DNA from: Astropecten irregularis
Taxonomy: Eukaryota; Echinodermata; Asteroidea; Paxillosida; Astropectinidae
Assembly (NCBI GenBank): GCA_963971285.1
Contig: OZ020252.1
Location: 11,693,662-11,757,661, forward strand
DNA length: 64,000 nt
Direction: 5' to 3'
Within the stretch, counting starts at the first letter, position 1. Every line of letters begins with the position of its first letter. A program made the position numbers and the translations under genes. This document shows, one piece after another, positions 6,595 to 55,743 of this stretch. A model generated the notes under the pieces. That model was not told the DNA's origin. It made no database searches and saw only the letters and a list, made by a program, of their open reading frames with translations.

Positions 6595-6831
6595 TTCTTG
6601 AAAAAACTACCTGCTGGAGCAGAAGCCTCTAATGTTCTTGTTGGTGAGGTGGACTTCCTAGACAAGCCAATCATTGCATTTGTCCGTTTATCCAATGGTG
6701 TTCTTCTACCAGACATGACTGAAGTGCCTATTCCAACAAGGTTTTTGTTCGTTCTTCTCGGCCCCCCAACTGGAGATAAGGTGAAATATCGAGAAATTGG
6801 AAGGTGTGTAGCTACTCTCTTTTCAGATGAG
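6595..6831 (+). CDS. SLC4 bicarbonate transporter, internal exon 1 of 6 seen
   Basis: This 237-nt exon (79 codons, phase 0 at both ends) is bounded by TTTGCAG and GTGAGT. It begins [20 protein letters not shown] and includes [32 protein letters not shown] and [13 protein letters not shown]. This is the hallmark of the N-terminal cytoplasmic domain (Band3_cyto) of Na+-coupled SLC4 transporters. These proteins move bicarbonate/carbonate with sodium across the plasma membrane and control cell pH; the cytoplasmic domain dimerises and regulates transport. Earlier exons are not found in 1-6594 and must lie outside the window or be too diverged to see. Reading continues in phase into the exon at 15581. 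Confidence 0.95.
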
Positions 6832-7298
6832 GTGAGTGCTTATTTTGAACAAGATGATTTGCATATATTCATTAATACATGTAGTTATAATTTTTGCTAA
6901 GCAGCTACAAAAAAAGGAATCTGTTAGCTGAGACACTTAAAGTGCATTTCAGAATTTAGGGCACTTATTAAGCCACTAAAAAGGTTTTGATTATTTAACT
7001 GCTTAATGCCAACTGATGAGTACATGCTGGATCTCCCCTTGATCTCTGAACAATCTCTTCTCAATTTCCACTTGCCTCTCTTTGAAAGATGCTACATGTG
7101 TAGTCAATTTTTGCAAAGTCAACTGTGAAAAGTAATTCCTTTTCTCAATAGGCTTAAAACATTTCGAAAATGTATGTCCTCTAGAATCCGCAACAAATAG
7201 CAATCTAATCATCATACTGCCCATGTTCAGTGTCAGGGTCACAAATTTTAGTGATAAAGATTTGATTAACTTGGAAATCCCTATCCCTGTATCAAATC

Positions 7299-8185
7299 AT
7301 GGGCAATCCAATGGTAACGAGTGAGGCACTGCTCCATTGGGAAGAATACAGGATACTATGCTAATCATGGGCAATCCAATGGTAACGAATGAGGCACTGC
7401 TCCATTGGGAAGAATACAGGATACTATGCTAATCATGGGCAATCCAATGGTAACGAGTGAGGCACTGCTCCATTGGGAAGAATACAGGATACTATGCTAA
7501 TCATGGGCAATCCAATGGTAACGAATGAGGCACTGCACCATTGGGAAGAATACAGGATACTATGCTAATCATGGGCAATCCAATGGTAACGAATGAGGCA
7601 CTGCACCATTGGGAAGTGTCCGGGGCACTATGCTAAACATGGGCAATCCAATGGTAACGAATGAGGCACTGCACCATTGGGAAGTATACAGGATACTATG
7701 CTAATCATGGGCAATCCAATGGTAACGAATGAGGCACTGCACCATTGGGAAGTATACAGGATACTATGTTAATCATGAGCAATCCAATGGTAACGAATGA
7801 GGCACTGCACCATTGGGAAGTGTCCGGGGCACTATGCTAAACATGGGCAATCCAATGGTAACGAATGAGGCAGCTGCACCATTGGGAAGTATACAGGATA
7901 CTATGCTAATCATGGGCAATCCAATGGTAACGAATGAGGCACTGCACCATTGGGAAGTGTCGGGGGCACTATGCTAAACATGGGCAATCCAATGGTAACG
8001 AATGAGGCACTTCACCATTGGGAAGTATACAGGATACTATGCTAATCATGGGCAATCCAATGGTAACGAATGAGGCACTGCTCCATTGGGAAGTGTCCGG
8101 GGCACTATGCTAAACATGGGCAATCCAATGGTAACGAATGAGGCACTGCACCATTTGGAATTATACGGGATACTATGCTAATCAA
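7299..8185. repeat. 68-bp minisatellite, ~13 copies, with alternating unit types
   Basis: The unit begins CATGGGCAATCCAATGGTAA and contains GAGGCACTGC and CCATTGGGAA. The CCAATGG and CCATTGG within one unit are self-complementary. The first four to five units end in AATACAGGATACTATG. Later units largely alternate between GTATACAGGATACTATG and GTGTCCGGGGCACTATG, giving a higher-order dimer pattern. The array starts about 470 bp downstream of the SLC4 exon and is intronic and non-coding. Confidence 0.9.
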
Positions 8186-8189
8186 TCTC

Positions 8190-9360
8190 GAGATACGAGA
8201 TTTTTGTTACAAAATTGACTAATGAAATATGCAAATGAGCTGTCATGTGCTTAATTAATTAAGAATTTAACTCTTCTAAGTCATAACAACGTCATCACTA
8301 AAAATTCTTGGGGTAGCACAGACGTCGCACCTAGTTTCATGACGATCAGACATTCTTTACGATATGAAATAAAATTTAGCTTTTTTATGACGTAATTATG
8401 ACATCACACTTATTTTCACAGTCGCATGCACATCTTCAGGATCTAACAAAGCTTTTGCAAAAAGAATCATTACCATATAATAGCACTTGTCATTCTCGAG
8501 ATATGCTCCAAACAAAATTCAGCCTTTTCATGACGTCATGATGACGTCACGGTCAATTTCATGGAACGGAGACCTCCTCAACAGATTCGGCCGGATGCAG
8601 CCTCTGTCACTTGTCACAATTTAAGTTATAATGCTTGGTGGCGCTATTGCTGTGCTTCTATTGACCCTGATCTACGTGTATCTTCGAAACTCAAGCCATG
8701 GTCACGAGACGTCACACAAAGCGGGAGTTTATTCTTTCTTTTTGAGGTATAAGGCCTAAAAGGTGTATTTTAACAATCAGTTTTTAATGTTTCACGTAGC
8801 AATTCCATCAGTAACTCCAATCTCAATGTAACATTCTCCGACAAATTATTTTTAGTAAATTTTAAAATTAACCGTAGAAAAAATCTACAAATTACTTATC
8901 TTTAAATAGGAAACACACATTTCGACTTCGATGACGTCCTGATGACTTCATCATGACGTCACGGTCATTTTCGTGGCAGCATGCACAACTACATGATATA
9001 ACCAAGCTTTTGCAAAAAGAATCATGTCCGTAGCATTTGTCGTTCTCGAGATATGCTGCGAACAAAATTTACTAATTAAATATTCAAATGACTGTAACTT
9101 GGCTTATTAATTAAGAATTTGTACAACTCTGTGACAGAATGATCCTTAGCTTATGAGCTTTCAGAAGATACCTCATCTAAGCTGATCGGAAGAAGCTTAT
9201 AAGAGATAAACTGTAAACAAAATCAGGATGATAAAGAATAATAATAGTGAAAAATTCTAACGAAAACAATACCTGTTCCGACATCGGCAATGTCGGAACA
9301 GCTAATAATAAAAATCAGAACAAAAACAAAACCTGTTCCGACATCAGAAATGTCGGAACA
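8190..9360 (+). mobile_element. Helentron-like non-autonomous element, GTTCCGAC type (5' end lost)
   Basis: The body is built of diverged ~150-200 bp units containing TTCTCGAGATATGCTGC, GATGACGTCATGATGACGTC and GCAAAAAGAATCATTACC. It ends with two hairpins, 9273-9300 and 9333-9360, each with arms CTGTTCCGACAT/ATGTCGGAACAG and preceded by AAAACAATACC or AAAACAAAACC. No ACTAGA start is seen, so the 5' end is missing or replaced at the minisatellite. No protein is encoded. The Helentron-like assignment rests on end structure only. Confidence 0.6.
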
Positions 9361-9372
9361 TTGATAATAAAG

Positions 9373-10290
9373 ACTAGACATTTCAGTGTTCGTGAACGAA
9401 CACGGAGCTGTTCCGACTTATTTGATCAACTTTAAAAGCTCTGATGACGTCATGACGATTAATTTCATGGCAGCATACTCATCAACATGATGTAAAAAGC
9501 TTTACAAGTAGAATCATTACCATAGCATTTGTCGTTCTTGAGATATGCTGCAAACAAAACAAACAGCTTTTTAATGACGTCATCCAGAAGTCACGGTCAT
9601 TTTCATAGCAACATGCATATCTAAAGGAACTAACAAACCTTTTGCAAAAAGAATCATTTCCATAGCATTTGTCGTTCTCGAGCTATGCTGCAAACAAAAA
9701 TCAGCTTTTTTGATGACGTCATGATGACGTACGTCACGGTAAATTTCACGGCAGCATACTCATGTACATGGTGTAACAAAGCTTTTACGAAAAGAATCAT
9801 TACCATAGCATTTGTCTTTCTCGAGATATGCTTTAAAGACAAAATCAGCCTTTTTGATGACGTAATGATGACGTCACTGTACATTTCGTGGCAGCATGCA
9901 CAACTATGATGTAATAAAGCTTTTGCAAAAAGAATCATTTCCCTAGCATTTGTGGTTCTCGAGATACGCTGCGAACAAAATTTACTAATTAAATATTCAA
10001 ATGACTGTCACGTGACTAATTAATTATGTATTTTTATAACTTAGTGTCAGAATGATCCTTAGCTTATAAGCTTTCATATGATACCTCATGTAAGCTGATC
10101 AGATGAAGCTCAGAAGAGATAAACAATAAACAAACTTTACTGCACAAAGCTATGGGAGCAAAAAGTTTGAAGGAATAATAATAATGTAAAATCCGAACGA
10201 AAACAATACCTTTTCCGACATCGGAATGTCGGAACAGCTAATCAGAACAAAAACAAAACCTGTTCCGACATCAGAAATGTCGGAACAGTC
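9373..10290 (+). mobile_element. Helentron-like element, GTTCCGAC type, both ends present
   Basis: The start ACTAGACATTTCAG is followed by a hairpin GTGTTCG-TGAA-CGAACAC and the tag GCTGTTCCGAC. The 3' end has two hairpins (10212-10237 and 10261-10289) built on TTCCGACAT/ATGTCGGAA, so the 5' tag is the reverse complement of the hairpin's second arm. The body again carries TGACGTCA palindromes and CTCGAGATATGCT units. It begins 12 bp after the terminal hairpin of the previous element, head to tail. There is no coding capacity, so mobilisation would have to be in trans. Confidence 0.65.
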
Positions 10291-10292
10291 AC

Positions 10293-11937
10293 GTAGTCAC
10301 GTGACAGTCATTTGAATATTTAATTAGTAAATATTGTGAACAGCGTATCTCGAGAACGACAAGTGGTACGAAAATAATTCTTTTTGCACAAGCTTAGTTA
10401 CATCATGTAGATGTGCATGCTGCCATAAAATTTGTGACACGACGTCATGATGACGTCATGACCGGAAGTTGAAGTTTGACGCGAAATAACTCGAAAACGG
10501 ATGGATTTGGGCACTTAAAACTTAAAAAACTTAAAACCAACAGCCTAAAGGATAGAGACGTACTAGGGCTTCCAGAAAATATAAATGATGACGTCATATG
10601 GGCGACACAGCGTCCTCTATGGTTGATTAAAGATATACAGTGATTACGTAATCCGAAAGTAAACAACGGATTTACGCCAAATTTAATTAGTGTCAAGCAT
10701 TAGAGCACCTCGTCATGTTTGTGAAGTTTGAATGTGATTACTTCATTCAACAGGAAGTTATGTGCCTTTAATTGAATAACACTATTTACTCGGAAACATC
10801 ATATTTGCTACTAAAATAAGTCTTTTTCTAAAAACTTGGTTACACTGTACATGCTGTAGTTGTGCATGCTGGCACAAAAATGGCCGCTACGTCATCATGA
10901 CGTCATAAAATTGGCTGTTTTTAAGCCCTAGGTCAGGGAATGGGCCCATATGTATACGTGTGTGTGTGTGTGTAGTGTGTACACGTACTAGGTCACATGG
11001 GTCCATATGTATATGTGTGCAGTGTACACTGCAGTTACATGTAACCCCATATGCAGCAGGCTGGGATCGTTTATTAAAAGTGGTCAAAGTCTGAGGAATA
11101 TGCTGTTATGTAAGAGGTAGGCCAGCAAGTGCACAAGGCACTGTTGCCATGGTAACAAGGTGTGTTACTATTCATAGGCATAAAAGCATATGAAGTACGA
11201 TGTTGAAAGTACTGTAAAGTCCATCGTCTAGCAGGAGGTTGTGTTATCAGGCTTAATACTTTCATGACCCCAGTTACATACTTATTTCCTTTGAATGATT
11301 AATCAGTTCATGGTTAAATGGATATAAAGCTTAACTCTTCTAAGCTTCTTCTGATCAGCTTAGATTAGGTATCATATGAAAGCTTATATGCTAAGGATCA
11401 CACTGACACTGAGCTGTAAAATATTTCTTCATTAATTAGGCACGTGACTGCTCGTTTAAATTTTTAATTAGTAATTTTTGTTACAAGCGCAAGCGTATCT
11501 CGAGAATGGCAAATGCTATGGAAAATATTCTTTTTGCAAAAGCTTTGCTACATCATGTAGTTGGGCATGCTGCTACGAAAATGACCATGACATTATCATT
11601 CATAACGTCATCAAAAAGACTGATGTTTTGTTAACAGCTCTTGAGAACGACAAATGCTATGGTAATGATTCTTTTTGTAAAAGCTTTGTTACATCATGCA
11701 CTTGAGTATGCTGCCAGGAATTGGACCGTGATGACGTCATAAAAAAGGATGATTTTTTGTTTGCAGCACATCTCGAGAACGACAAATGCTATGGTAATGA
11801 TTCTTTTTTTAAAGCATTGTTACATGCATGCTGCCATGAAATTGACCGTGACGTCATAATGACGTCATCAGAGCTTTAATCTTATCAAATAAGTCGGAAC
11901 AGCTTCGTGTTCGTCCACGAACACTTAAATGTCTAGT
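10293..11937 (-). mobile_element. Helentron-like element, GTTCCGAC type, minus strand, 3' end missing
   Basis: Reading the minus strand, it starts at 11937 with ACTAGACATTTAAG, a hairpin GTGTTCG...CGAACAC and the tag GCTGTTCCGACTTATTTGAT. The body mirrors the plus-strand copies (CTCGAGAACGACAAATGCTA, TGACGTCATCA). It runs to 10293, where it meets the terminal hairpin of the plus-strand element without a terminal hairpin of its own. It was inserted into a Harbinger-type Myb/SANT frame (see 11938-12260). A block at 10480-10740 recurs inverted at 14270-14600. Confidence 0.6.
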
Positions 11938-13671: not shown

Positions 13672-15028
13672 ACTAGACATTGTGGTTGTGGGAACAACCA
13701 CTAGGTGTTCGGGGTCTCATTTCGTAGTGGAACTGTTATGTGAACATGTTGGAACGTATGTGATCAATCGTCCCTCATATAATGGCATATCGAAATACAT
13801 GTACACTTAAACTGCGTGACTGAACAAATACTGATCATACTGATTGCTGTATTCGTACACTGACTGATAGAGTATAGAAAATTGCGTCACCTTTAAATAT
13901 ACATAACATTGGCTGGACAATTTCATAGAGTTGCTTAAGCGCAAAATTTGCTTAAGCATGAAAAGTCTTCCTTGATCAAACAGGATTCCCAACCAAATGT
14001 TCATGTGATGTTTACTGTTTTTGACTTGTATTCGGCCATTGTTTGCTTAGCATAACATTCACGAGGAGTTTTGGCTGGCATACTGATTTTATTTACCAAG
14101 GTTTTTGGTGCTTAAGCAAATTGTGGTGCTTAAGCAGCTCTATGAAATTGGCCCCTGGTCAGTTCATCACAGCTAACTGAATATTGACAAAAGTCATTGA
14201 ATGCATACGATGTATATATTTTACAATTTTCACCGATGTACGTCACAGTAAACAGTATTTGAATAATTACATAATTTTCCCTTTAAATGAGCATAACTTC
14301 CGGTTAAATGACGTCACAGATTTGAAACTACACAAACATGTCAGGGTGCAATAGAGCTTCACACCTACAAAATTTGGCGGAAATTTATTGTTCACTTTCG
14401 GATTACGTAATCACTGTATATCTTTAATCAACCGTAGAGGGCGCTATATAGCCCGTATGACGTCATCGTTTATGTTTTCTGAAAGCCCAAGACCTTCTCT
14501 ATCTTTTACCCATTGAGGTTTTTTGTGCCCAAATCCTTCCGTTTTCAAGTTATTTTTAGTCAAACTTCAACTTCCGGTAACACCGGAAGTGGAGGTCATT
14601 TGTACACAGCACTGAATATATTAATTGTTGAGATTTATGTGTTAAGTAACATATGTTAATATCAAAATCATAGGTCATGTGGCTCTTAAGTTATAGAGCA
14701 CCAAAGTTTTTCCTAAAAACGCGTGTAATTTGATACCCGATGACGTCATCATGACGTCAATCTTCTAGGTACAACTAGGCATCATGTCCGAAGTTCCCAC
14801 CAAGTTTCATGTCGATATCCTGTACCTGTGACCAAGAAGTCCTGCTGACAAGTTTGGGATGAAAAAAACTAAAAAATAAAATTCGTACAATAACAATAGG
14901 TGTTCGGCTGAACCCGAACACCTAATAAAACTCGAACAATAACAGTAGGTGTTTGGCTTGAACCCGAACACCTAAAAAAAAAATTCGAACAATTACAATA
15001 GGTGTTCGGCTTGAATCCGAACACCTAA
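13672..15028 (+). mobile_element. Helentron-like element, AGGTGTTCGG type, both ends present
   Basis: It starts ACTAGACATT, then a hairpin GTGGTTGT-GGGA-ACAACCAC, then TAGGTGTTCGG. It ends with three tandem hairpins at 14896-14924, 14946-14974 and 14999-15028, with arms TAGGTGTTCGG/CCGAACACCTA separated by A-rich linkers containing AACAATA or AACAGTA. The interior block 14270-14600 is the inverted counterpart of 10480-10740 inside a GTTCCGAC-type element. The two types therefore share body sequence but not end tags. No coding. Confidence 0.65.
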
Positions 15029-19420: not shown

Positions 19421-20029
19421 AACTTCACATTGCGTAATGCATTGATTCTTACAAGTTTCAACAGCAATCAGTTCCTTTTTCCGCGAGACATTGAGCACTG
19501 CCATTTTTTTCTGACAAGGTAGCCTATTATGCAAAATTCATGAAACTAATATCATCCATAATTATTAAGTATTCCTTCAGTAAAGTAGGGTAATTTCATG
19601 GAGTGTTGGCCGACAAGGCAGTTACTGCCACACGTACATACACCCAGAAGTATTCTCATACATGCACGTACAGGTCAACGATAGTACACGATGACTACAT
19701 GTACATCATGTACACCCCATGTAGGCTGAACACGATTATTATACAGTTCACGATTACTACACACATTGCGATTATTTTAAAGTTCACGATTACTACACAT
19801 GTTCACTTCATGATTATCATACGATACGATACAATACTGTAATCGAGTAGAGTCCATATTTGAGTAGTTGAATGCGCCATTGCGCCAAGTCTCGCTGGGC
19901 ATGGTCGGTCGGCCATGGTAGCCGAATCCATTGTAAACACGTTGGGACTAGATTGAGAAAACCTTTGTTGTCAGCTGTCAGCTAACTTCATATAGATTTC
20001 TTGCATAAAAATTCATCCTGACACGCAAG

Positions 20030-20330
20030 GTACAATACATGATTGGTAAAGGTCACAGGACAGCACTCATACTTTGTCTGATCAAACATGTACATGAAAT
20101 AATAAACCTGTGGACATTTGAGCTCAATCGGACATCTGAGTCACGAGAAAATAGCGAAAACCCATCTCAATTTTTCTTATAAAACATGAAGAATGGTTTT
20201 GATCTTACCCCGAGATCAAAACTGTTTTCGGTCTTTGTTTTACTAATTTCTGGATATGTACAGCATTTAAGGTGGAAATATTTTAACGGTATGTTTCTAC
20301 CAGCACCATCGTCATACCTTGAGTGAAAGG
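20030..20330 (-). repeat. Dispersed repeat family (TTTCACAGGTTTATTATTTC), copy 1
   Basis: The minus strand reads TTTATAAGAAAAATTGAG, TTTTCGCTATTTTCT, GAGCTCAAAT and a TTATTATTTCATGTACATG-type stretch. Plus-strand relatives lie at 27060-27390 and 53605-53785, and a fragment (ACGGTATGTTTCTACCAGC) at 46445-46500. It is non-coding. The family resembles abundant MITEs I associate with echinoderms, from memory. Confidence 0.65.
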
Positions 20331-20339
20331 GGATATAAC

Positions 20340-20560
20340 TAAAACAAGTGAGGGTTTCCTTTATGTTTGTTCCAAAAATCGTTTGGACGAACGATCTTTG
20401 GAAAATACACTAAATCTTGATTTCCTTGAAAATCTCAGCATCTGATGAACCAAGATTTCCCATGGTGACTATTTGCACTGTTTACGAACTGTTGAGTCCA
20501 TTTTCTGTCTCAAACTCAGTAATTTTGTTTTGGAGGCCTTGCAAATCCTATATATGGTCC
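20340..20560. repeat. Dispersed repeat, inverted copy at 50780-50985
   Basis: TTCCAAAAATCGTTTGGACG, GAACCAAGATTTCCCATGGT and TTTTGGAGGCCTTGCAAATC all recur in reverse complement at 50780-50985. Frames on either strand appear in both copies but have stops and no family motif, so I treat it as a repeat. Confidence 0.75.
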
Positions 20561-20810
20561 CTTTTAACTGTATGTATCCAATACATGTTAATAAATTTTG
20601 TCTGCGGCAACCTTTCATTTTATTTCTATGTGAGGAAAATAGTATTTATTCTCAGACGACACCCAAATAAAAATGAATCAAAACAGTTAATTGACTTTTG
20701 GCACAGCTTTTACTGTTTTTATTACCAACAAGATCATGGACACTTACCAGTTTGGCAAATCAGAAATAAGTGACAAATATCTGACCAATACAAGGGCAAA
20801 TGCCCTAGGG

Positions 20811-27059: not shown

Positions 27060-27390
27060 TATCACTTTCAAGGTATGAAGATGGTACTAGTAGAAACATA
27101 TTGTTAAAATAAAACAATTTCAGCCTGAAATGGTGTATCTAACCAAAAAGAGTCAACCAAACACCAACAACATTTTTGATCATGGCAAGATCAAAAATCC
27201 TTCTTTATGTTTTATAAGAAAAATTGAGTTGGGTTTTCGCTATTTTCTTGGGAATTAGATGTCTGATTGAGAGCTGTCTGATCTTAATTTTCACATGCTT
27301 ATTATTTCATGTACATGCTGGATCAGACAAACTGTTAGTGCTGTTCTCTCACCTTTACCAATGTTGTACGTGCGCCCTTTTATACCTTCA
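27060..27390 (+). repeat. Dispersed repeat family (TTTCACAGGTTTATTATTTC), copy 2
   Basis: TTTTATAAGAAAAATTGAGT, TTTTCGCTATTTTCTTGGGA and TTATTATTTCATGTACATGC match 53605-53785 directly and 20030-20330 in reverse. It ends about 120 bp before the SLC4 exon at 27514. Confidence 0.65.
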
Positions 27391-30964: not shown

Positions 30965-31226
30965 AACATCTAAAAAATCAACAAAAAATAATCGATTTGA
31001 GATATTAAGTTGATTCTTTCACCAAAAGTCAATGTTGGGCAATTGGTCTTTCTTTGTGGCACAAACATGGTCAAGTCACATGACTTAAGATTAAAGGTGC
31101 ACTTTTCAAAAGTATAAACCAAGGTCTTAATCAAATGTCTTTGTGTATAAGGTTATGAAGATATTTTTTTAGTATCATAAAACGGAAAAGCCTTGTGTTC
31201 TGTTTTCAACAGACACAACCTCTAGT
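30965..31226 (-). mobile_element. Helentron-like element, CTTTTCCG type, 5' fragment on minus strand
   Basis: The minus strand starts ACTAGAGGTTGTGTCTGTTG, with the hairpin closing as AACAGAACACAA, then GGCTTTTCCGTTTTATGATA. This matches the starts at 50664, 50983, 52067 and 54484. About 260 bp are kept and no terminal hairpins are found. Family body sequence with TGACGTCA motifs lies at 31370-31920. Confidence 0.65.
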
Positions 31227-32249: not shown

Positions 32250-33228
32250 ACATGAGCTGCTAACTTCGCTGCTAACTTGGCAGTGAAAATTTGTGGCCGT
32301 TGGAACGCAATTTTAGCCAACTTCGCTGTCAACTTTGCTGCTAACTTCGCTGCTAAGTCCGAAAGTTAACAGTTGAAATTTGTGCTGATCCTCTTAGTTA
32401 ACAGCGAAATGTGATACTTGAGCAGCACTGCTAACCATAGAGTAAGGAAGAGTGCTAACTGACCTGTGAGAGAAAACATGACTTCCGCTTGATGTTTATT
32501 GCCGACCTCTCACGCATTTTGCGCCATGTTCTTGTGCTAGCTGGTACTTCGTCGTTCCTTGCAGACCTCAAATTTTAATGATTTTAATTAGGCACTGCCA
32601 TTTTGGCCTCAAGTAAGTGGACATTTTAGGGGCACTGGGGCCAAAAGCATGGGCAAAGAGGTCATTTTTTTTTTATGAAGGAAAGGCATCGTGGCCAAAA
32701 ACACCATTGAGGTGTAGGCCTACAAAATGTATGCATTGTTATTTGCGAGATCTCCGTAAAAATATTCTGACCGTCCTTCCAAAGTATCGTAAATTGCATT
32801 TTTCTGATCAACTAAAACTTACTTTAATTTCAGTCGGTTATTTTGGCCTTTTGGCCAAGTAGCTACACTTTTCACATACTTGATCTAAAAAAATTGTGCA
32901 AAAGTCTTCTGAAAGCGACGATCATAAAACCCATCACGCACGCCACGTGCACACTGCACAGTGAAGTCAGCACGGCATCTCGAAATTTCCACTGTCAAGT
33001 GCAGTCAAGTATCGCTCGGTACCACATGGATCAGTGGCCGACGTTCGGTCAGTACAGACTTTGCAGTGAGAAATCAAATTAAGTGGGACACCACGGCCGA
33101 GAAGAAAGGGGGCACAGTCCAGCACACGGCGATTTTTGGCCGCGGACAGAGTGGGCATTACGGCTTTATCAGAGAGTGTAATTTTCGCTATCGTATTTGT
33201 AACATTTTGCTGTCGTTTTTGCATGATT
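32250..33228. repeat. Repeat region related to the SGNH-interrupting element
   Basis: It starts with degenerate 12-bp units of GCTGCTAACTTC (32255-32370). Within it 32745-32945 align with 22250-22440: shared pieces include GCGAGATC, TAAATTGCATTTT(C) and GATCAC/CATCACGCACGCCA. The ends are not identified. No transposase frame is recognised. Confidence 0.5.
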
Positions 33229-33897
33229 AGGCTTGCCCTTCACCGACGTGGATGAGCACTGTATACTCGATCAGTGCTTGTGAGAGCACGTGAGAAAAAA
33301 TCACATGCTTGCTCAGGTGGGATTCGAACCCACGACCTCCTGCTTACTAGTGCAGATGCCTTACCTGCTAGGCCACCGAGCTAGCTGGGGTCTGCAGGGT
33401 GAATCGAATCCAATATCGCGGCGGGTACCGCAGTAAATCATGAATATTAATTGATTTTGGTCGGGAAATAGATAATATGCAAATTAGGCTTGCCCTTCAC
33501 CGACGTGGATGAGCACTGTATACTCAGTGCTTGTGAGAGCACGTGAGAAAAAATCACATGCTTGCTCAGGTGGGATTTGAACCCAAGACCTCCTGCTTAC
33601 TAGTGCAGATGCCTTACCTGCTAGGCCACCGAGCTAGCTGGGGTCTGCAGGGTGAATCAAATCCAATATCGCGGTGGGTACCGCAGTAAACATGAATATT
33701 AATTGATTTCGGTCGGGAAATAGATAATATGCAAATTAGGCTTGCCCTTCACCGACGTGGATGAGCACTGTATACTCAGTGCTTGTGAGAGCACATGAGA
33801 AAAAATCACATGCTTGCTCAGGTGGGATTCGAACCCACGACCTCCTGCTTACTAGTGCAGATGCCTTACCTGCTAGGCCACCGAGCTAGCTGGGGTC
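33229..33897 (-). repeat. tRNA-derived SINE, three tandem copies
   Basis: Three consecutive units start GGCTTGCCCTTCACCGACGT at about 33229, 33486 and 33738. On the minus strand each contains a tRNA-like head: AGCTCGGTGGCCTAGCAGG (A-box-like), GCACTAGTAAGCAGGAGGTC, and GTGGGTTCGAATCCCACC (B box and T-arm). The tail with CATGAATATTAATTGAT and ATATGCAAATTA links units. It would be transcribed by RNA polymerase III if active. The copies are very similar, so the tandem is young. The last copy lacks the tail. Confidence 0.85.
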
Positions 33898-34237
33898 TTG
33901 CTATTGTTATCGCTGTTGTATTCGCTGCCGTAATACCCGGGTTTTTTTTTCAAACAACTGCTGTGTACGGTCAAAGCGCGCGTCAGCCCCTATAATCGGA
34001 AGTAGCTGGGATAGATCAGCGATGTTATAACCAATGACGTAATGGTTTTGTGACCTCTGCACACGCTGATTGTGCAGTTTGCAGTCGTGAACACAGCGTG
34101 TGAACACTCGGTGAATTTTACCTTTTGGGAATGGCATATTTACAATGGCTCAGAAAATATTTTATGAGCAAAATTGTGTTTGTAATTATTTTAAATTGTG
34201 ATTGTTAATGATGTACTTGTTTATGGTATTTTTATAG

Positions 34238-49436: not shown

Positions 49437-49998
49437 CCCGTTGGCGGCCATCTGCAAAGTTTCATAGGGCTCTGGCGGGAGATTACCAAGGACGGATGGG
49501 TCCTCTTTACCCTGACGTATGGATACTCCCTCGAGTTCACGAGCACCCCTCCGCCCAAGGCTATCCCACGACAGACTCCAGTGCCACACGACAGAGTCCA
49601 ACGCATGGCACTGGAATCAGAGATTAGACGGCCTCCTTCACAAGCATGCCATCCTCCCTGTACCACCCAACGAGACAGAGGACGGGTTTATATCCACCTT
49701 CTTCCTGACACCAAAGAAGGAACCCAGTAAGTGGCATCCTATCATCAATTCCAAACCACTGAACAGGTTTATTCGCCCCAGACGCTCCCGGATGGAGACC
49801 CTCAAGACAGTGCTACGCTCCCTACCGACTCCATGCTGGGGGACGTCCATTGACTTCAGAGACGCATACCTGCACGTGCCCATTCACGCGCAAGACCGGA
49901 GGTTCCTTCGATTCACATACAGAGACCAGACCTATGAGTTCCGGTCGCTCCCCTTCGGCCTCTCCACTTCGCTGCGGGTCTTCACCCAGGTGGTCTGA
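49437..49998 (+). pseudogene. DIRS reverse transcriptase, lacks the YxDD box
   Basis: It reads PVGGHLQSFIGLWREITKDG and LEFTSTPPPKAIPRQTPVP. After a frameshift near 49620 come LLHKHAILPVP, GFISTFFLTPKKEPSKWHPI, INSKPLNRFI, TSIDFRDAYLHVPIHAQDRR and FRSLPFGLSTSLRVFTQVV, then a TGA. The first catalytic Asp (IDFRDAY) and the LPFGL block are present. The frame then passes almost directly into the RNase H region, so the segment with the YxDD catalytic box is deleted. Confidence 0.8.
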
Positions 49999-50079
49999 GC
50001 GGTTGCAGCCTACCTGTGGCTGGACGTGATGATTTTCCAGTACCCGTCCAGGACCTGGGACCAGGCCTTCCAGCGCAAC

Positions 50080-50652
50080 CACATCAACGTGCTCGAGCTA
50101 TAGGCTGTCTTCAATGCCCTGCGGCACTTCTACGAGTGCTTCAAGGGAAGACGAATACTAGTCCACTCCGACAGCTTGACAACGGTAGCGTACACCAACC
50201 ATCAAGGGGGCACACGCTCCCCTCAGCTGTGTGTACTGTCTTGGCAGATCCTTCAGTGGACAAAGGACATTGGGGCCCACCTACAGGCCATCCACATTGC
50301 CGGTCAGGACAACGTGACAGCTGATGCTCTCTCCCGAGGGTCGATAAAACCGACAGAATGGACCCTCCACTCTGGTGTCACAAGGACGATCTTCCTCCGT
50401 CTGGAAAGGCCTCACGTCGACCTGTTCGCCTCAGCCGACAATGCCCAGCTTCAAACGTTCTGCATTAGGTACCCCCATCCATGTGCCTGGGCGACGGATG
50501 CCCTTCAGATCAACTGGATGGGCCTCCTTGGGTACGCCTTCCCTCTGATCTCCCTAATACCCCGCATCCTCGACAAGCTAGAGCAGGAACTATGCCACGT
50601 TCTCCTGATCGCCCCGTTCTGGCCATGCCAACCCTGGTTCACCAGACCATAA
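50080..50652 (+). pseudogene. DIRS RNase H and C-terminal extension
   Basis: It reads INVLEL (then TAG), AVFNALRHFYECFKGRRILV, HSDSLTTVAYTNHQGG and AGQDNVTADALSRG. After that comes the DIRS-specific tail VDLFASADNAQLQTF, WATDALQINWMGLLGYAFP and LLIAPFWPCQPWF. HSDS and ADALSR carry the expected acidic residues. The VDLFA and W-P-x-QPWF blocks are characteristic of DIRS elements. The following recombinase is missing. Confidence 0.8.
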
Positions 50653-50663
50653 TAATGATAATA

Positions 50664-50777
50664 ACTAGAGATTGTGTCTGTTGATAACAGAACACAAGGC
50701 TTTTCCGTTTTATGATATTAAAATAAATCGTCAAAACCTTTCACACACAAAGACATTTCATATTAAGTCTACTCTTA
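50664..50777 (+). mobile_element. Helentron-like start, CTTTTCCG type, truncated
   Basis: ACTAGAGATTGTGTCTGTTG, a hairpin closing with AACAGAACACAA, GGCTTTTCCGTTTTATGATA. After ~110 bp it breaks into a different dispersed repeat (50780-50985). Confidence 0.7.
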
Positions 50778-50779
50778 AA

Positions 50780-50985
50780 GGGAGCATATAGGATTTGCAA
50801 GGCCTCCAAAAAAATTTATTGAGTGTGAGACAGAAAATGGACTCAACAGTTCGTAAACAGTGCAAACAGTCACCATGGGAAATCTTGGTTCTTCAGATGC
50901 TGGGTTTTTCAAGCAAATCAAGATTTTGTGTCTTTTCCAAAGATCGTTTGTCCGAACGATTTTTGGAACAAACATAAAGTAAACT
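50780..50985. repeat. Dispersed repeat, inverted copy of 20340-20560
   Basis: GGATTTGCAAGGCCTCCAAA, ACCATGGGAAATCTTGGTTC and AACGATTTTTGGAACAAACA are the reverse complement of the 20.3-kb copy. It lies between two Helentron-like starts. Confidence 0.75.
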
Positions 50986-52066
50986 AGAGATTGTGTCTCT
51001 TGAAAACAGAACACAAGGCTTTTCCGTTTTATGATATTCAAATAAATTGTCAAAACCTTTTACACACAAAGACATTTGATTAAGATATTAAGCCTACTTT
51101 AAATATACTTGGTCATGTTTGTGTCAAAAAGAAAGACCTTGCCAAATATTAACTTTTGGTGAAAGAATCATGATCATAGCTCTTACCACTTTAAAATGAG
51201 GAGCTACTTCAGGTTTGACCGGAAGTAGAGGTCACATTGGTCAACCAATGTATCACAAAGAAAGGCCTTATAGGTAACATTCACTTTTTGTGAAAGAATC
51301 ATGATCCTAGCTCTTACAACTTTTAAATGAGGAGCTACTTCCTGTTTGACCAGAAGTAGAGGTCACAGAGGTCTAGCAATGTGACACAAATGAAAGACCT
51401 TGCCTAACATTGACCTTTGGTGAAAGAATCATGATCAAAGCTCTTACCACTTTTAAATTAGGATCTACTTCCTGTTTGACCGGAAGTAGAGGTCACAGGG
51501 GTCAACCAATGTATCACAAAGAAAGACCTTGCCTAACATTCACTTTTGGTGAAAGAATCATGATCCTAGCTCTTACCACTTTTAAATTAGGAGCTACTTC
51601 CTGTTTGACCAGAAGTAGAGGTCACAGAGGTCAAGCAATGTGTCACAAAGAAAGACCCTGCCTAACAATCACTTTTGGTGAAAGAATCATGATCCTAGCT
51701 CTTACCACTTTTAAATGAGGAGCTACTTCCTGTTTGACCGGAAGTAGAGGTCACAGAGGTCAAGCAATGTGTCACAAAGAAAGACCCTGCCTAACAATCA
51801 CTTTTGGTGAAAGAATCAACTTAATATCTCAAACTGTTGAATTGTTGTTGATTTTTAAAGATTTTGATGATTAAATTCAAATCGCTTGTCACATGACCTC
51901 TGATGACGTCATGATGATAAAAAGTTTCGGGAGACAACTACCCTATATGGACTTCCTTCACACCAAGTTTGGTTAAAATCGGCTGCTAAAAAATGACCAA
52001 AGTGCCGCAGACAAAATTTGTGTACAAAGTCAATACAAATTGAGGAGAAGAAGAAGAAGAAGAAGA
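50983..52066 (+). mobile_element. Helentron-like element, CTTTTCCG type
   Basis: It starts ACTAGAGATTGTGTCTCTTG and GGCTTTTCCG. Its body holds about five and a half 128-bp tandem units (51145-51830). It then shows ACATGACCTCTGATGACGTC-type sequence and ends at a (GAAGAA)n stretch where the next element starts. The terminal hairpins expected after the GAAGAA tract are replaced by the next element's start. Confidence 0.65.
51145..51830. repeat. 128-bp tandem repeat inside the Helentron-like element
   Basis: The unit includes TTTTGGTGAAAGAATCATGA, AGCTCTTACCACTTTTAAAT, GAGCTACTTCCTGTTTGACC, GGAAGTAGAGGTCACAGAGG and GTGTCACAAAGAAAGACC. Related units are at 52260-52545, 53845-54235 and 54720-54830. 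Many units are 129 bp (43 codons), so long open frames appear, but no protein family is recognised. Confidence 0.85.
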
Positions 52067-53603
52067 ACTAGAGATTGTGTCTGTTGAAAACAGAACACAA
52101 GGCTTTTCCGTATCCGCTGTTATTGAAAAAATTGTCATAACCTTATATTCACACAAAGACAGTTGATTATGATATTATGTTTTATACATTTGAGGTGTGC
52201 ACCTTTAATCATAAACTCACATGTATTGGTCATATTTGTGACACAAAGAAAGACCTTGCCTAACATCGACTTTTGACTAAAGAATCATGATCACAGCTCT
52301 TACCCCTTTTAAATGAGGAGCTACTTCCTGTTTGACCGGAAGTAGAGGTCACAGAGGTCAAGCAATGTGTCACAAAGAAAGACCTTGCCTAACATTGTCT
52401 ATTGGTGAAAGAATCATGATCATAGCTCTTACCACTTTTAAATGAGAAGCTACTTCCTGTTTGACCGGAAGTAGAGGTCACAGAGGTCAAGCAATGTGTC
52501 ACAAAGAAAGACCCTGCCCAACAATCACGTTTTGGTGAAAGAAGCAACTTAGTATCTCAAACTGTTGATTTTTTGTTGATTTTCAAATAACATACTGACA
52601 CCACCGCAGTTTCTTGTTTTAATCAAAAGAGGGCGCCATTCAAAACCGTGTGCTCGATTCATGCATTCCTTGAAAGGTAGATTGTTACGCATGCGTAGTT
52701 GTCTTGTCAAAACAGTATACGCTGGCAACTATGATAAGGAAATGAAGGAGAATACGGCATATATAACACAGGCAATCAACCACATGCCCGCGCCTTGCAT
52801 TTATTGACCAATATTTTTACGTACAAGTCAATGGGGAAGCGTGAAAAATATTTTTAAAAATCATAAAAAATAAACAAATGACGCTGTCTTGACGTAACTT
52901 CATAATTACGATCCCGAACCTCCCTTTTACCAACCTACCAATTTTCAAGGTGATTGGCTGTTCCTGCTATGCGTTATAAAAATCGCATTTTTTATGACGT
53001 CATGATGACGTCACCGATTTTTTGTCTATGCAGTGTTCATCTATGGTGCTGTACTGCATGCTGAAGAATTATCAAAAAGAAATTCAAAGATATCTTGTTT
53101 CGTTTACTAGATATCGTTAAAAGAACTTTAATGACCCAAAATTTCAATAAATCATAAAAAATCAGGGAATGACGTCATGATGACGTCATTGCAATTTTTC
53201 GATATAACACTTCCCGACTTAGATACATACCAAGTTTCAACTCAATCGGACTTAGGGTTCATTCATAATTGATGTCTGAAGTTTGCCCCTTTAAGACACT
53301 GTCACGTGACACCTGATGACGTCATGATGACGTAAATGTTGCGCATACAACTACCCTATAGGGACTTTGTTTTGACCTAGTTTGATCAAAATCGGCAATT
53401 TAAAAGTGGCCAAAGTGGCCAAGAAGAAGAAGAAGAAAAAAAAAAAAAAAATCAGAACAAAAACAATACCTTTTCCATTGAACATGGAAAAGCCAAAAAA
53501 TCAGAACAAAAACAATACCTTTTCCGATTGAAATCGAAAAAGCCAAAAAAGAAAAAAACAAAAACAAAAGTATTACCTTTTCCGATCACAATCGGAAAAG
53601 CCA
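52067..53603 (+). mobile_element. Helentron-like element, CTTTTCCG type, with three terminal hairpins
   Basis: It starts ACTAGAGATTGTGTCTGTTG after a GAAGAA tract and has the tag GGCTTTTCCG. It contains two 128-bp units, TGACGTCATGATGACGTCA palindromes and a GAAGAAGAAG tract. It ends with three hairpins (53469-53494, 53518-53543 and 53576-53602) of form CCTTTTCC...GGAAAAGCC, each preceded by AACAATACC or GTATTACC. The 5' tag GGCTTTTCC is the reverse complement of the closing arm. Confidence 0.7.
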
Positions 53604-53604
53604 A

Positions 53605-53785
53605 TTATTCTTCATGTTTTATAAGAAAAATCAAGTCAGGTTTTCGCTATTTTCTCATGACTCGTGACTCAGATGTCCGATTGAGCTCAAATTTTCACAG
53701 GTTTATTATTTCATGTACATGTTTGATCAGACAAAGTATGAGTGCAGTCCTGTGACCTTTACCAATCATGTATTGTACCTTTAAT
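53605..53785 (+). repeat. Dispersed repeat family (TTTCACAGGTTTATTATTTC), copy 3
   Basis: TTTTATAAGAAAAATCAAGT, GATTGAGCTCAAATTTTCAC and GGTTTATTATTTCATGTACA match 27185-27390 directly and 20030-20200 in reverse. Confidence 0.65.
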
Positions 53786-53829
53786 ATGTACTTTTTCAAT
53801 GTTCATGTTTGTCACTGAAGAAGGAAATT

Positions 53830-54483
53830 GCCTTACATTAACTTTTGGTAAAAGAATCATGATCATAGCTCTTACCGCTTTTAAATGGGAAGCTACTTCC
53901 TGTTTGACCAGAAGTAGAGGTCACAGAGGTCAAGCAATGTGTCAAAAAAAGACATACTGCCTAACATTGACTTTTGGTAAAAGAATCATGATCATAGCTC
54001 TTACCACTTTTAAATGGGAAGCTACTTCCTGTTTGACCAGAAGTAGAGGTCACAGAGGTCAAGCAATGTGTCAAAAAAAGACATACTGCCTAACATTGAC
54101 TTTTGGTGAAAGAATCATGATCATAGCTCTTACCACTTTTAAATGAGGAGCTACTTCCGGTTTGACCAGAAGTAGAGGTCGAAGAGGTCAAGCAATGTGT
54201 CACAAATGAAGGACCTGCCTAACAATCACTTTTGGTGAAAGAATGAACTTAATATCTCAAACCGTTGATTTTTTGTTGATTTTTAAAGATTTTTATTATT
54301 AAATTCAAATTGCTTGTTACATGACACCTGATGCCGTCATGATGACAAAACGTTTTGGGAGACAACTACCCTATATGGATTTCCTTCACACCAAGTTTGG
54401 TTAAAATCGGCTGTTTAAAAGTGACCAAGTGCCGCAGACAAAATTTGTTTACAAATTCCCATAGACTTGAGGAGAAGAAGAAG
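53830..54483 (+). mobile_element. Helentron-like body sequence (128-bp units), 5' end missing
   Basis: Three to four 128-bp units (53845-54235) are followed by the same downstream body as at 51830-52060 (ACATGACACCTGATGCCGTC, CCAAGTTTGGTTAAAATCGG) and a GAAGAAGAAGAA tract that joins the next start. No ACTAGA start is present. Confidence 0.6.
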
Positions 54484-55012
54484 AACGAGAGATTGTGTCT
54501 GTTGAAAACAAAACACATGGCTTTTCCGCATATGATACATAAAACATTTCTCAAATTAATACACATCAATTATTTTGTTTGATTAAGACATATGGTTTAA
54601 AGGTATTCATATTTCAATGTAGAAAACTAAAGTTTAACCCATTTGTTGCAGGGTTTATGCAACACATTGCTTGTCAATGAGAATTGTGTCACAAAGAATA
54701 AACTTGCCTAACATTGACTTTTGGTGAAAGAACATGATTATAGCTCTTACCACTTTTAAATGATGAACTACTTCCTGCTTGACCAAAAGTAGAGGTCACA
54801 GAGGTCAAGCAATGTAACACAAATGAAAGATTGATTGATTGCTTAAAAGTAACCAAAGTGGCTTGTAGAACGTCCTAGTGCATTGTATATGGGAAATTTG
54901 GCAACAAGAAGAGGAAGAAGAAGAAGAACAAAAACAGAACAAAAACAAAGCGGAAAGCCAAAAAAAAACAGAACAAAAGCAATACCTTTTCCGTTGAACA
55001 CGGAAAAGCCGA
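54484..55012 (+). mobile_element. Short Helentron-like element, CTTTTCCG type, both ends present
   Basis: It starts ACGAGAGATTGTGTCTGTTG (one change from ACTAGAG), then GGCTTTTCCGCATATG. It has one 128-bp unit (54720-54830), a GAAGAAGAAG tract, a damaged hairpin near 54948 and a good one at 54986-55010 (CCTTTTCCG...CGGAAAAGCC). At about 530 bp it is the smallest copy with both ends and shows the minimal architecture. Confidence 0.7.
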
Positions 55013-55530
55013 CGAAGATGATGATAGCCATAAATATTACGTTTTACCAAGTGGCTGCAGCTAACATTCTATAGAAGAAGATGTAGAGTGTGAAAAGTTA
55101 ATATTTGTAAACATGGCATAAAGCGTATTATACCATGCCTTTATTTTATACTGGAAGCCAACCTAATTTCTCAGAACTGGACTTCATGATATTTTTGTAA
55201 TTTTTCTGGCAAGAATCACAACGTTTAGGAAAACAGTGTAAAACAAAATGTGTGGCTCTCCTAATGCCAAGCATAAAACAAAACTGAGAAAATTGGTTGA
55301 ATATTGGTCAGTAGATTATACATGACTAATCTTAAATTGCATGGTCGTCTCTGGTTAAAAAACATTTTTAATCTTAAGCAATTTGTTTAGCAGTATTTTT
55401 TTATTAAATAAATGCATACCCCGGTAATATCATTGTCTGAGCATACCTTTATAAAAATCCTCTGATGCTTTCAACCAAATACAATATCTACCTTTTGCTT
55501 ATTAACAGTATTCATTATATTTTTATACAG
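55013..55530. other. Intron; no feature recognised
   Basis: AT-rich intron ending in the polypyrimidine/AG acceptor TTTTATACAG of the next SLC4 exon. Confidence 0.45.
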
Positions 55531-55743
55531 GTCTGCAGGACTCAACTATTTATCATTTCGTGTTTGGATTGGTTTCTGGACTTGTGTCATCTGTATCATT
55601 TTAGTGGCAACAGATGCAAGTGCTTTAGTACGATATATCACTCGATTTACTGAGGAGGCATTTGCAGCCCTGATAGCATTCATCTTCATTGTAGAGGCTT
55701 TTGAGAATCTTTTAGAGATCAACCATAGCTACCCGCTTGAAAC
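55531..55743 (+). CDS. SLC4 bicarbonate transporter, internal exon 6 of 6 seen
   Basis: This 213-nt exon lies between TTTTATACAG and GTAAGT and completes a Thr codon with the previous exon. It reads SAGLNYLSFRVWIGFWTCVI, then CIILVATDASALVRYITRFT and EEAFAALIAFIFIVEAFENL. It covers transmembrane helix 5 (VWIGFWTCVICIILV), the invariant ATDAS motif, the RYITRFTEEAFA loop/helix-6 start and helix 6. SLC4 proteins of the Na+-coupled group read LVATDASSLVCYITRFTEEA here. The 15.8-kb intron before it holds the hAT, mariner, DIRS and Helentron-like elements. The next exon lies beyond the window or was not detected. Confidence 0.95.

Follow-up and report, generated by a model that had tools for sequence, protein, structure and literature searches.

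Within a window of 64,000 nucleotides from the sea star Astropecten irregularis (contig C16, positions 11693662-11757661, within a 475.7-Mb assembly on which the genome-wide searches were run) lie short, Helentron-like mobile elements whose two ends carry the same short tag. The initial annotation had described ACTAGA-type starts followed by a hairpin and a tag, end hairpins armed with the tag, and three different tags, and all of this was borne out. The three tags are designated T1 (CTTTTCCG), T2 (CTGTTCCGAC), and T3 (AGGTGTTCGG). Eight starts, each with ACTAGA (once ACGAGA), a hairpin, and a tag, were located at 9373, 13672, 50664, 50983, 52067, and 54485 on the plus strand and at 31226 and 11937 on the minus strand. 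Eleven tag-armed hairpins were found, those of T2 at 9273, 9333, 10210, and 10260, those of T3 at 14898, 14947, and 15000, and those of T1 at 53470, 53519, 53577, and 54986, together with one decayed T1 hairpin near 54950.

The region from 50664 to 55012, annotated initially as T1 element territory, does hold T1 starts and hairpins, but self-comparison rejected a single 4.3-kb element at 50.66-55.01 kb and revealed a nest of several T1 elements and a non-Helentron repeat, X. The outer T1 element, alpha (50664..55010, plus strand), has its start and tag at 50664-50710, its right body from 53782, and its last hairpin at 54986-55010. Our assignment of its parts, drawn from the sequence, would have alpha split by X, which holds two nested T1 elements, and by a T1 copy at 54485. 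The left part of X lies at 50777..50982 (plus strand) and the right part at 53606-53781, and by self-BLAST X matched 20354-20564 at 92% and 20027-20194 at 91% (both minus strand). Copies of X also occur at 20027-20564 (minus strand) and, in part, at 27068-27368; both carry sequence between the two parts that is absent at the nest (about 159 bp in the 20-kb copy), and no site cleanly lacking X came out of self-comparison of the window. Within X sit the T1 elements that start at 50983 and 52067. The first, beta (50983..52066, plus strand), comprises a start, the tag, 129-bp tandem repeats, and a GAA microsatellite, and its 3' hairpin probably lies within 53504-53604. The second, gamma (52067..53495, plus strand), is inserted in the GAA microsatellite of beta, and its first hairpin begins at 53470. 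Three serial T1 hairpins, each behind an A-rich motif, occupy 53455..53604 (plus strand). A small T1 element, epsilon (54485..54965, plus strand), lies in GAA microsatellite and has a decayed hairpin at about 54937-54965, followed by the terminal T1 hairpin with its A-rich motif at 54971..55010 (plus strand).

Elsewhere in the window, two serial T2 hairpins (9258..9361, plus strand) close a 5'-incomplete T2 element with a body from about 8185. The T2 element at 9373..10288 (plus strand) has a start, the tag, 138-bp repeats, and hairpins at 10210 and 10260, while the T3 element at 13672..15027 (plus strand) carries a single start followed by three hairpins in series (14898, 14947, and 15000). 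On the minus strand, a T2 start heads a stretch at 10293..11937 that contains T2 repeats and, at 10461-10771, a T3-like body block, and a T1 start heads 30970..31226, adjoining the AGG/AAG microsatellite of another T1-like body. No 3' hairpin belonging to the minus-strand starts 31226 (T1) and 11937 (T2) was found in the window.

The ends share a common anatomy. Aligned 5' ends begin with ACTAGA[C/G]ATT or a close variant, followed by the hairpin and then the tag, and an A-rich motif of the GAACAAAAACAATA type precedes every 3' tag-arm hairpin. As first described, the right, closing arm of the 3' hairpin is generally the reverse complement of the 5' tag, but agreement can be imperfect: hairpin 10210 combines a T2 right arm with a left arm of T1-like sequence, an example of drift through point change. 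A tag-blind detector, which misses imperfect copies (starts 50983 and 54485 and several hairpins), recovered 8 hairpins and 6 starts from the window, compared with 1 hairpin and 2 starts from 20 dinucleotide shuffles in total. The predicted folding of the ends was stronger for eight hairpins, with z-scores from -1.8 to -7.7 as DNA, than for seven starts, at -0.4 to -3.3 (T2 starts, -1.7 and -1.3; start 54485, -0.4). An Rfam search of 50500-55200 returned no match.

An imperfect subterminal inverted repeat, of the ATTGT..TTGTT type at the 5' end, where it is part of the hairpin, and of the AACAA..ACAAT type before the 3' hairpin, is clear in T1 and T3 and weak in T2. In T1 and T3 the left arm of the 5' hairpin matches the A-rich 3' motif imperfectly, in inverted orientation; this likeness is weak in T2, whose best inverted match in the end alignments falls on the hairpin rather than on the A-rich motif. 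The right arm of the 5' hairpin together with the tag resembles, in direct orientation, the A-rich 3' motif together with the left hairpin arm, with scores of 16.0 for T1 and 14.5 for T3, each best with its own lineage. In the 3' stem, 93.9% of cells were paired and five of nine pairs had changed on both sides, compared with 31-52% paired when the partner was slid and 76.4% in shuffles. The alignment of the ends across tags, which differ by few bases, indicates that the T1, T2, and T3 ends are diverged homologues. Two further hairpin types, T4 (GGGTTTTC/GAAAACCC) and T5 (AGCTGTTCCGC), were seen at other loci (L009, L011, L013, L017, L022, L026, L027, and L036). T4 hairpins often stand behind a T1 hairpin, or alone within T1 elements, and have self-complementary arms one base off the T1 tag.

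Assignment to the canonical Helitrons (Helitron1) was rejected because the 5' end is of the ACTAGA type and the ends do not show Helitron1 termini (5'-TC and CTRR-3' with a hairpin 10-12 nt upstream); the bases directly after the hairpin are CTAA-like in T2 and most T3 ends, and CCAA-like in T1. Hairpins are present at both ends, as in Helitron2 (that at the 54485 start being weak), with a terminal repeat that is clear in T1 and T3 and weak in T2, and in the end alignments this repeat alone falls short of the published threshold of at least 11 identical bp. A palindrome near the 3' end supports the original description as Helentron-like. Helentrons proper are defined by a fused endonuclease, on which the search result is given below.

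Outside the window, 33 loci were fetched, 20 of them (10 kb each) chosen at T1 starts and 13 (4 kb each) at T3 or T2 hairpins; all counts from pattern searches are among the matches listed (100 places per pattern, largely on contig C1). Loci L001-L008 were excluded from the tag-match, insertion-base, and start-after-hairpin counts. For tag matching in the 33 loci and the window, each start was assigned the first hairpin array lying within 6 kb and ahead of the next start. Sixty starts had a recognised tag and 34 of them had a downstream array, the first hairpin of which carried the same tag in 30 of the 34, whereas 10,000 shuffles gave a mean of 12.1 and a maximum of 23. Tags thus match within elements more often than in shuffles. 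One of the four misses is a start-like site at window position 6788, absent from the tag-blind detector list and counted in the 34. Start-to-hairpin lengths recur (T3, 1001, 1008, and 1016 bp; T2, 844 and 845 bp, and 1024 and 1025 bp), which gives independent support that starts and hairpins bound one unit and are not separate repeats. At least 13 of 61 starts lie no more than 40 nt after a hairpin, an undercount, since the T1 pattern used misses imperfect hairpins; all 13 are of the same lineage as that hairpin if T4 is grouped with T1, as expected for head-to-tail copies or for landing beside an element's own end. Paired, lineage-specific ends, with starts and arrays bounding one unit, are supported.

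The initial annotation had also proposed a search for an autonomous Rep-helicase element with the same ends, and such partners were found, with few links to T1. The genome contains 149 matches to the Pfam profile Helitron_like_N, a large number of them within open frames 3,000-3,714 amino acids long. PIF1 matches number 147; many lie some 2.2 kb beyond a Rep match, on its downstream side, in frames of equal length, as for a fused Rep and PIF1-type helicase. Pfam was searched with chosen open reading frames. In each of three sampled frames OTU, DUF6570, and tegument-type protease matches lie upstream of Rep, with a PHD match in two (one below the cut-off), and large frames in loci L042-L049 carry both OTU and herpes-tegument-type protease matches. 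Among the 150 scored matches to AP-type endonuclease PF14529 (of 534 candidates), none lay in a Rep-sized frame. A T3 start (C1:4886240), a 3,258-amino acid Rep and PIF1 frame, and T3 hairpins (C1:4866385) follow in order over about 20 kb, parts of which were read. Pieces of 1000 amino acids beside Rep are 38-41% identical between lineages. Rep frames of identical or similar lengths were also seen in clusters at C11:16.2-16.4 Mb (three of 3,714 amino acids), C20:6.83-6.90 Mb (three of 3,326 amino acids), and C14:10.48-10.65 Mb, suggesting recent or segmental amplification.

Rep subtypes were defined by the profile start in the hidden Markov model (HMM) match, subtype 1 corresponding to T2, subtype 2 to T1, and subtype 3 to T3. 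This correspondence was guessed from four Rep-hairpin pairs before T1 hairpins and T2 and T3 starts were searched. The tests on C1 used 22 near-complete Reps and the listed T1 places on C1 (74 of 100 hairpins and 50 of 100 starts); of the 100 T3 start places, the upstream-start test used those up to C1:35.1 Mb, the other 16 lying farther along. Exact hairpins 8-13 kb downstream of the Reps, on the same strand, were matched in tag in 7 cases and mismatched in 0, against means of 0.39 matched and 0.30 mismatched, and a maximum of 3 matched, in 2,000 random draws. Exact starts 8-11 kb upstream were matched in 8 cases and mismatched in 0 (null means 0.30 and 0.15; maximum 4 matched; 5,000 draws). 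By subtype, the upstream start was found for four of five Reps of subtype 1 (T2), three of four of subtype 3 (T3), one of eleven of subtype 2 (T1), and none of two of subtype 4. T1 hairpins also lie downstream of one of two subtype-2 Reps on C8 (C8:2460829) and one of two on C7 (C7:40926). Arrays occur here as well, with five T2 hairpins 9.4 kb downstream of a subtype-1 Rep and two T3 hairpins 10.4 kb downstream of a subtype-3 Rep. That the tag follows the Rep subtype on C1 is supported, the T1 link being the weakest of the three.

We consider it highly probable that the window elements are HINE-like, non-autonomous rolling-circle elements of the Helentron/Helitron2 type that are moved in trans by Rep-helicase elements, with a separate Rep lineage for each tag, tag and Rep having co-diverged, and with serial hairpins arising through nesting and read-through.

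Several observations weigh against this reading. The sampling is uneven, all 33 loci being on C1 and picked by T1 starts or by T2 or T3 hairpins, and the contrast of 30 matches with the shuffles is inflated because loci were chosen by family, and by clustering. Three of the four tag-match misses are T1 starts with T4 hairpins. The T2 5' end scores 13.0 with the T3 3' end in direct orientation and 12.0 with its own, and the 3' stem covariation reflects few independent changes, mostly between the three families. On the Rep side, 20 partial rows of 42 were dropped, subtype is the HMM profile start only, the four pairs that gave the idea are counted among the 7 hairpin matches, and two of the 8 start links (L019 and L027) had been seen before the test. 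Within the distances used, 14 of the 22 Reps have no exact start and 15 no exact hairpin; for subtype 2, an exact T1 start lies upstream in 1 of 11 and an exact T1 hairpin downstream in 3 of 11. The subtype-3 Rep at C1:7607099 has a T1 hairpin 16.5 kb downstream, with the T3 hairpin at 20.9 kb.

The anatomy of the ends, their matching, the co-segregation with Rep subtype, the nesting, and a recurring T2 hairpin order are direct findings; from them we infer how mobilisation in trans, Rep binding, nicking, termination, and read-through could proceed. Large Rep-helicase elements still in the genome would mobilise the short elements in trans. The matching Rep would bind the 5' block formed by the hairpin right arm and the tag and nick at the 5' end, the helicase would then unwind, and the tag hairpin would be recognised as the terminator by the same Rep; tag and Rep lineage would have co-diverged. 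Insertion appears to take place beside an A (T on the other strand), often in the A-rich or trinucleotide stretches that flank the hairpins of resident copies. ACTAGA is preceded by A in 56 of 61 starts, compared with a fraction of 0.307 A in the sample, and the T1 starts 52067, 54485, and 31226 (minus strand) lie directly behind the GAA/AGG-type microsatellite of a resident T1 body. A-rich targets hide any target duplication; the X site is without about 159 bp present in the 20-kb copy. Through landing beside resident hairpins, 3' hairpins would pile up, and read-through to a later hairpin would fix multi-hairpin ends, which would then be inherited.

Serial hairpins are common among the loci sampled, 30 of 53 arrays having two to five hairpins, although this is not a genome rate since the T2 and T3 loci were picked from hairpin places. 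A visible nested start for every serial hairpin was rejected as an explanation, as the element at 13672 has a single start and three hairpins; that at 9373 has a single start and two. Tandem duplication of the last unit by slippage, with neither nested insertion nor read-through, is the strongest competitor for these arrays, and we give it a substantial chance, though somewhat below even. It would suit the same-tag arrays of near-identical units, many of them 48-63 bp apart, as well as the greater likeness of later T2 units within an array (0.977) than of first and later units (0.925). Mixed-tag arrays, however, make up 7 of the 53, all headed by T1, and two of these proved to be nests: in L012 and L018, a T1 element is inserted in the A-rich stretch that separates a T3 body from its T3 hairpins, and the stretch split in L018 is continuous in L031, a paralogous empty site. 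T2 arrays, moreover, keep a recurring type of first unit. A distinct T2 unit (CCGAACGAAAACAATA or CCGTACGAAAACAATA) comes first in five of nine multi-unit T2 arrays from the fetched loci, two of the five being neighbours in L035, and is absent from later positions, save for a partly similar third unit in L040; the T2 pairs in the window keep the same order. Since the distinct unit keeps the first position, arrays seem to have been copied as arrays.

Another alternative is that the 3' stems are kept for structure alone, any hairpin serving to terminate, and that tag identity is inherited without function. In Helraiser, replacement of the stem (StemX) left about 90% of wild-type activity (PMC4778049), and the T4 hairpins are self-complementary yet one base off the 5' tag. 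We nevertheless hold this to be unlikely. In all three families the tag lies beyond the 5' hairpin; the proteins presumed to be their partners are 38-41% identical in the pieces compared, and a functionless copy should have drifted from the stem. Whereas the Helraiser stem is exchangeable, here the stem sequence recurs at the 5' end and varies with the Rep subtype, from which it would appear that Rep reads the tag.

The initial annotation had proposed that families evolve by swapping matched end modules, so that one Rep would read several tags and matched end pairs would be exchanged onto shared bodies. The shared body blocks on which this was founded exist in part: the block common to T2 and T3 is in all six T3-selected loci and in the minus-strand T2 copy of the window, but in only one of seven T2-selected loci, and is thus typical of no more than a minority of T2. 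The block was also present in six of 20 T1-selected loci, together with T3 right-end sequence; in the two inspected, L012 and L018, a T1 copy lies inside a T3 element, so this mixture is one of element within element. With the block missing from six of seven T2-selected loci and the tags being homologous, each with its own Rep subtype, exchange of modules is improbable and the proposal was not sustained. That starts and hairpins are independent repeats meeting by chance is hardly credible, for although no array was seen for 26 of the 60 tagged starts within 6 kb and ahead of the next start, unit lengths recur, tags match, and both kinds of end are present on the two sides of Rep matches.

Several neighbouring features were also recorded. 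On the plus strand at 49516-50652, a reverse-transcriptase open reading frame (RVT_1 at 49516-49998) and a further frame at 50104-50652, which lacks a Pfam match, terminate immediately ahead of the T1 nest. At 55508-55738 (plus strand), 0.5 kb downstream of the nest, is an exon-like match to a bicarbonate (HCO3-) transporter domain (PF00955, E 1.3e-27), so that the nest may be intronic or may immediately precede a gene. A 68-bp tandem array of about 13 copies (7295-8184) directly precedes the T2-like body and possibly represents the central repeat of a T2 element now lacking its start. A 252-bp tandem array at 33226-33898 has three tRNA-like predictions, with related sequence at 34.5, 39.0, and 55.8-56.1 kb. 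At C9:6252153-6263800, four T1 starts lie in a row at an exact spacing of 3,876 bp, probably a tandem array of whole units. A search for the T1 start in viral contigs gave no match.

Matched hairpin-associated repeats at both ends are already known for Helitron2 and Helentrons, and the comparisons that follow concern portions of the papers cited. HINE families are delimited by subterminal repeats in which 11 or more bp are identical, mite HINEs have palindromic repeats, and insertion is at TT (PMC4067079); the 3' stems of DINE-1 differ among species in a compensated way (PMC2374699). With these the present elements share imperfect subterminal inverted repeats, an inverted repeat by the 5' repeat (in DINE-1), a 3' stem-loop, a microsatellite, and central tandem repeats, as well as apparent TT insertion, repeat-defined families, ends in common with an autonomous partner, and compensated 3' stem changes. 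They differ in repeating the arm sequence behind the 5' hairpin and in an inherited series of up to five 3' hairpins, where those texts, figures excepted, describe one 3' palindrome. Helitron2 has hairpins at both ends with compensatory changes between two elements (PMC3627910), and is alike in its asymmetric terminal inverted repeats, for T1 and T3 at least, a 5' hairpin built with the 5' repeat, and a 3' repeat directly before the 3' hairpin; the extra tag copied from the 3' stem, the serial hairpins, and the accessory protease-like domains in the frame are differences here. In FoHeli of Fusarium the repeats are part of hairpins at both ends and vary in sequence by subgroup, and self-insertion explains multiple termini, as here, although these are 5' termini there and serial 3' termini here (PMC5148889). 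Cg_HINE of Crassostrea gigas is similar in its subterminal inverted repeats, inverted repeat, microsatellite, satellite-like tandem repeats, 3' palindrome, and related flanks with unrelated repeats, but its microsatellite is in the left flank rather than before the 3' hairpins, and one palindrome is described in the portion consulted (PMC7492417). Tegument-type deubiquitinase and OTU domains occur likewise in Helitron frames of VTD/OTU-bearing Helentrons, which have a C-terminal AP endonuclease not established here (PMC9741609). Elements with similar ends appear in PMC4344730 and PMC3630058, the relevant portions of which make no mention of a 3' hairpin series. In the Helraiser model, Rep nicks the 5' end, the helicase unwinds, and the hairpin terminates; about 11.7% of events captured flanking DNA with the hairpin intact, and at least 36% did so with it deleted (PMC4778049).

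The suggestion that co-varying tags and serial hairpins were undescribed therefore stands in part. Family-defining repeats (PMC4067079) and matched hairpin-forming ends (PMC3627910, PMC5148889) are published, but open-access searches on serial or multiple Helitron hairpins, with figures and subscription papers outside their scope, turned up no description of serial 3' hairpins; as evidence of absence this is weak. The inherited serial 3' hairpins, and the tag that follows the 5' hairpin, seem less described than the matched ends.

Tentatively, and as a more doubtful extension of the trans-mobilisation reading, the tag might be a lineage-specific address that Rep reads in three positions, once behind the 5' hairpin and again in each arm of every 3' hairpin, by which diverged Rep lineages could coexist without cross-mobilisation. 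The serial hairpins might then be reiterated terminators limiting read-through, and the A-rich spacers landing sites. As far as we know, it is an open question by what means a rolling-circle transposase distinguishes its own ends from those of a relative in the same genome. Three Rep subtypes and three tags in one genome, with many long-frame copies, make a natural set for asking which Rep residues go with which tag, and the same set is suited to asking whether multiple terminators cut read-through and gene capture.

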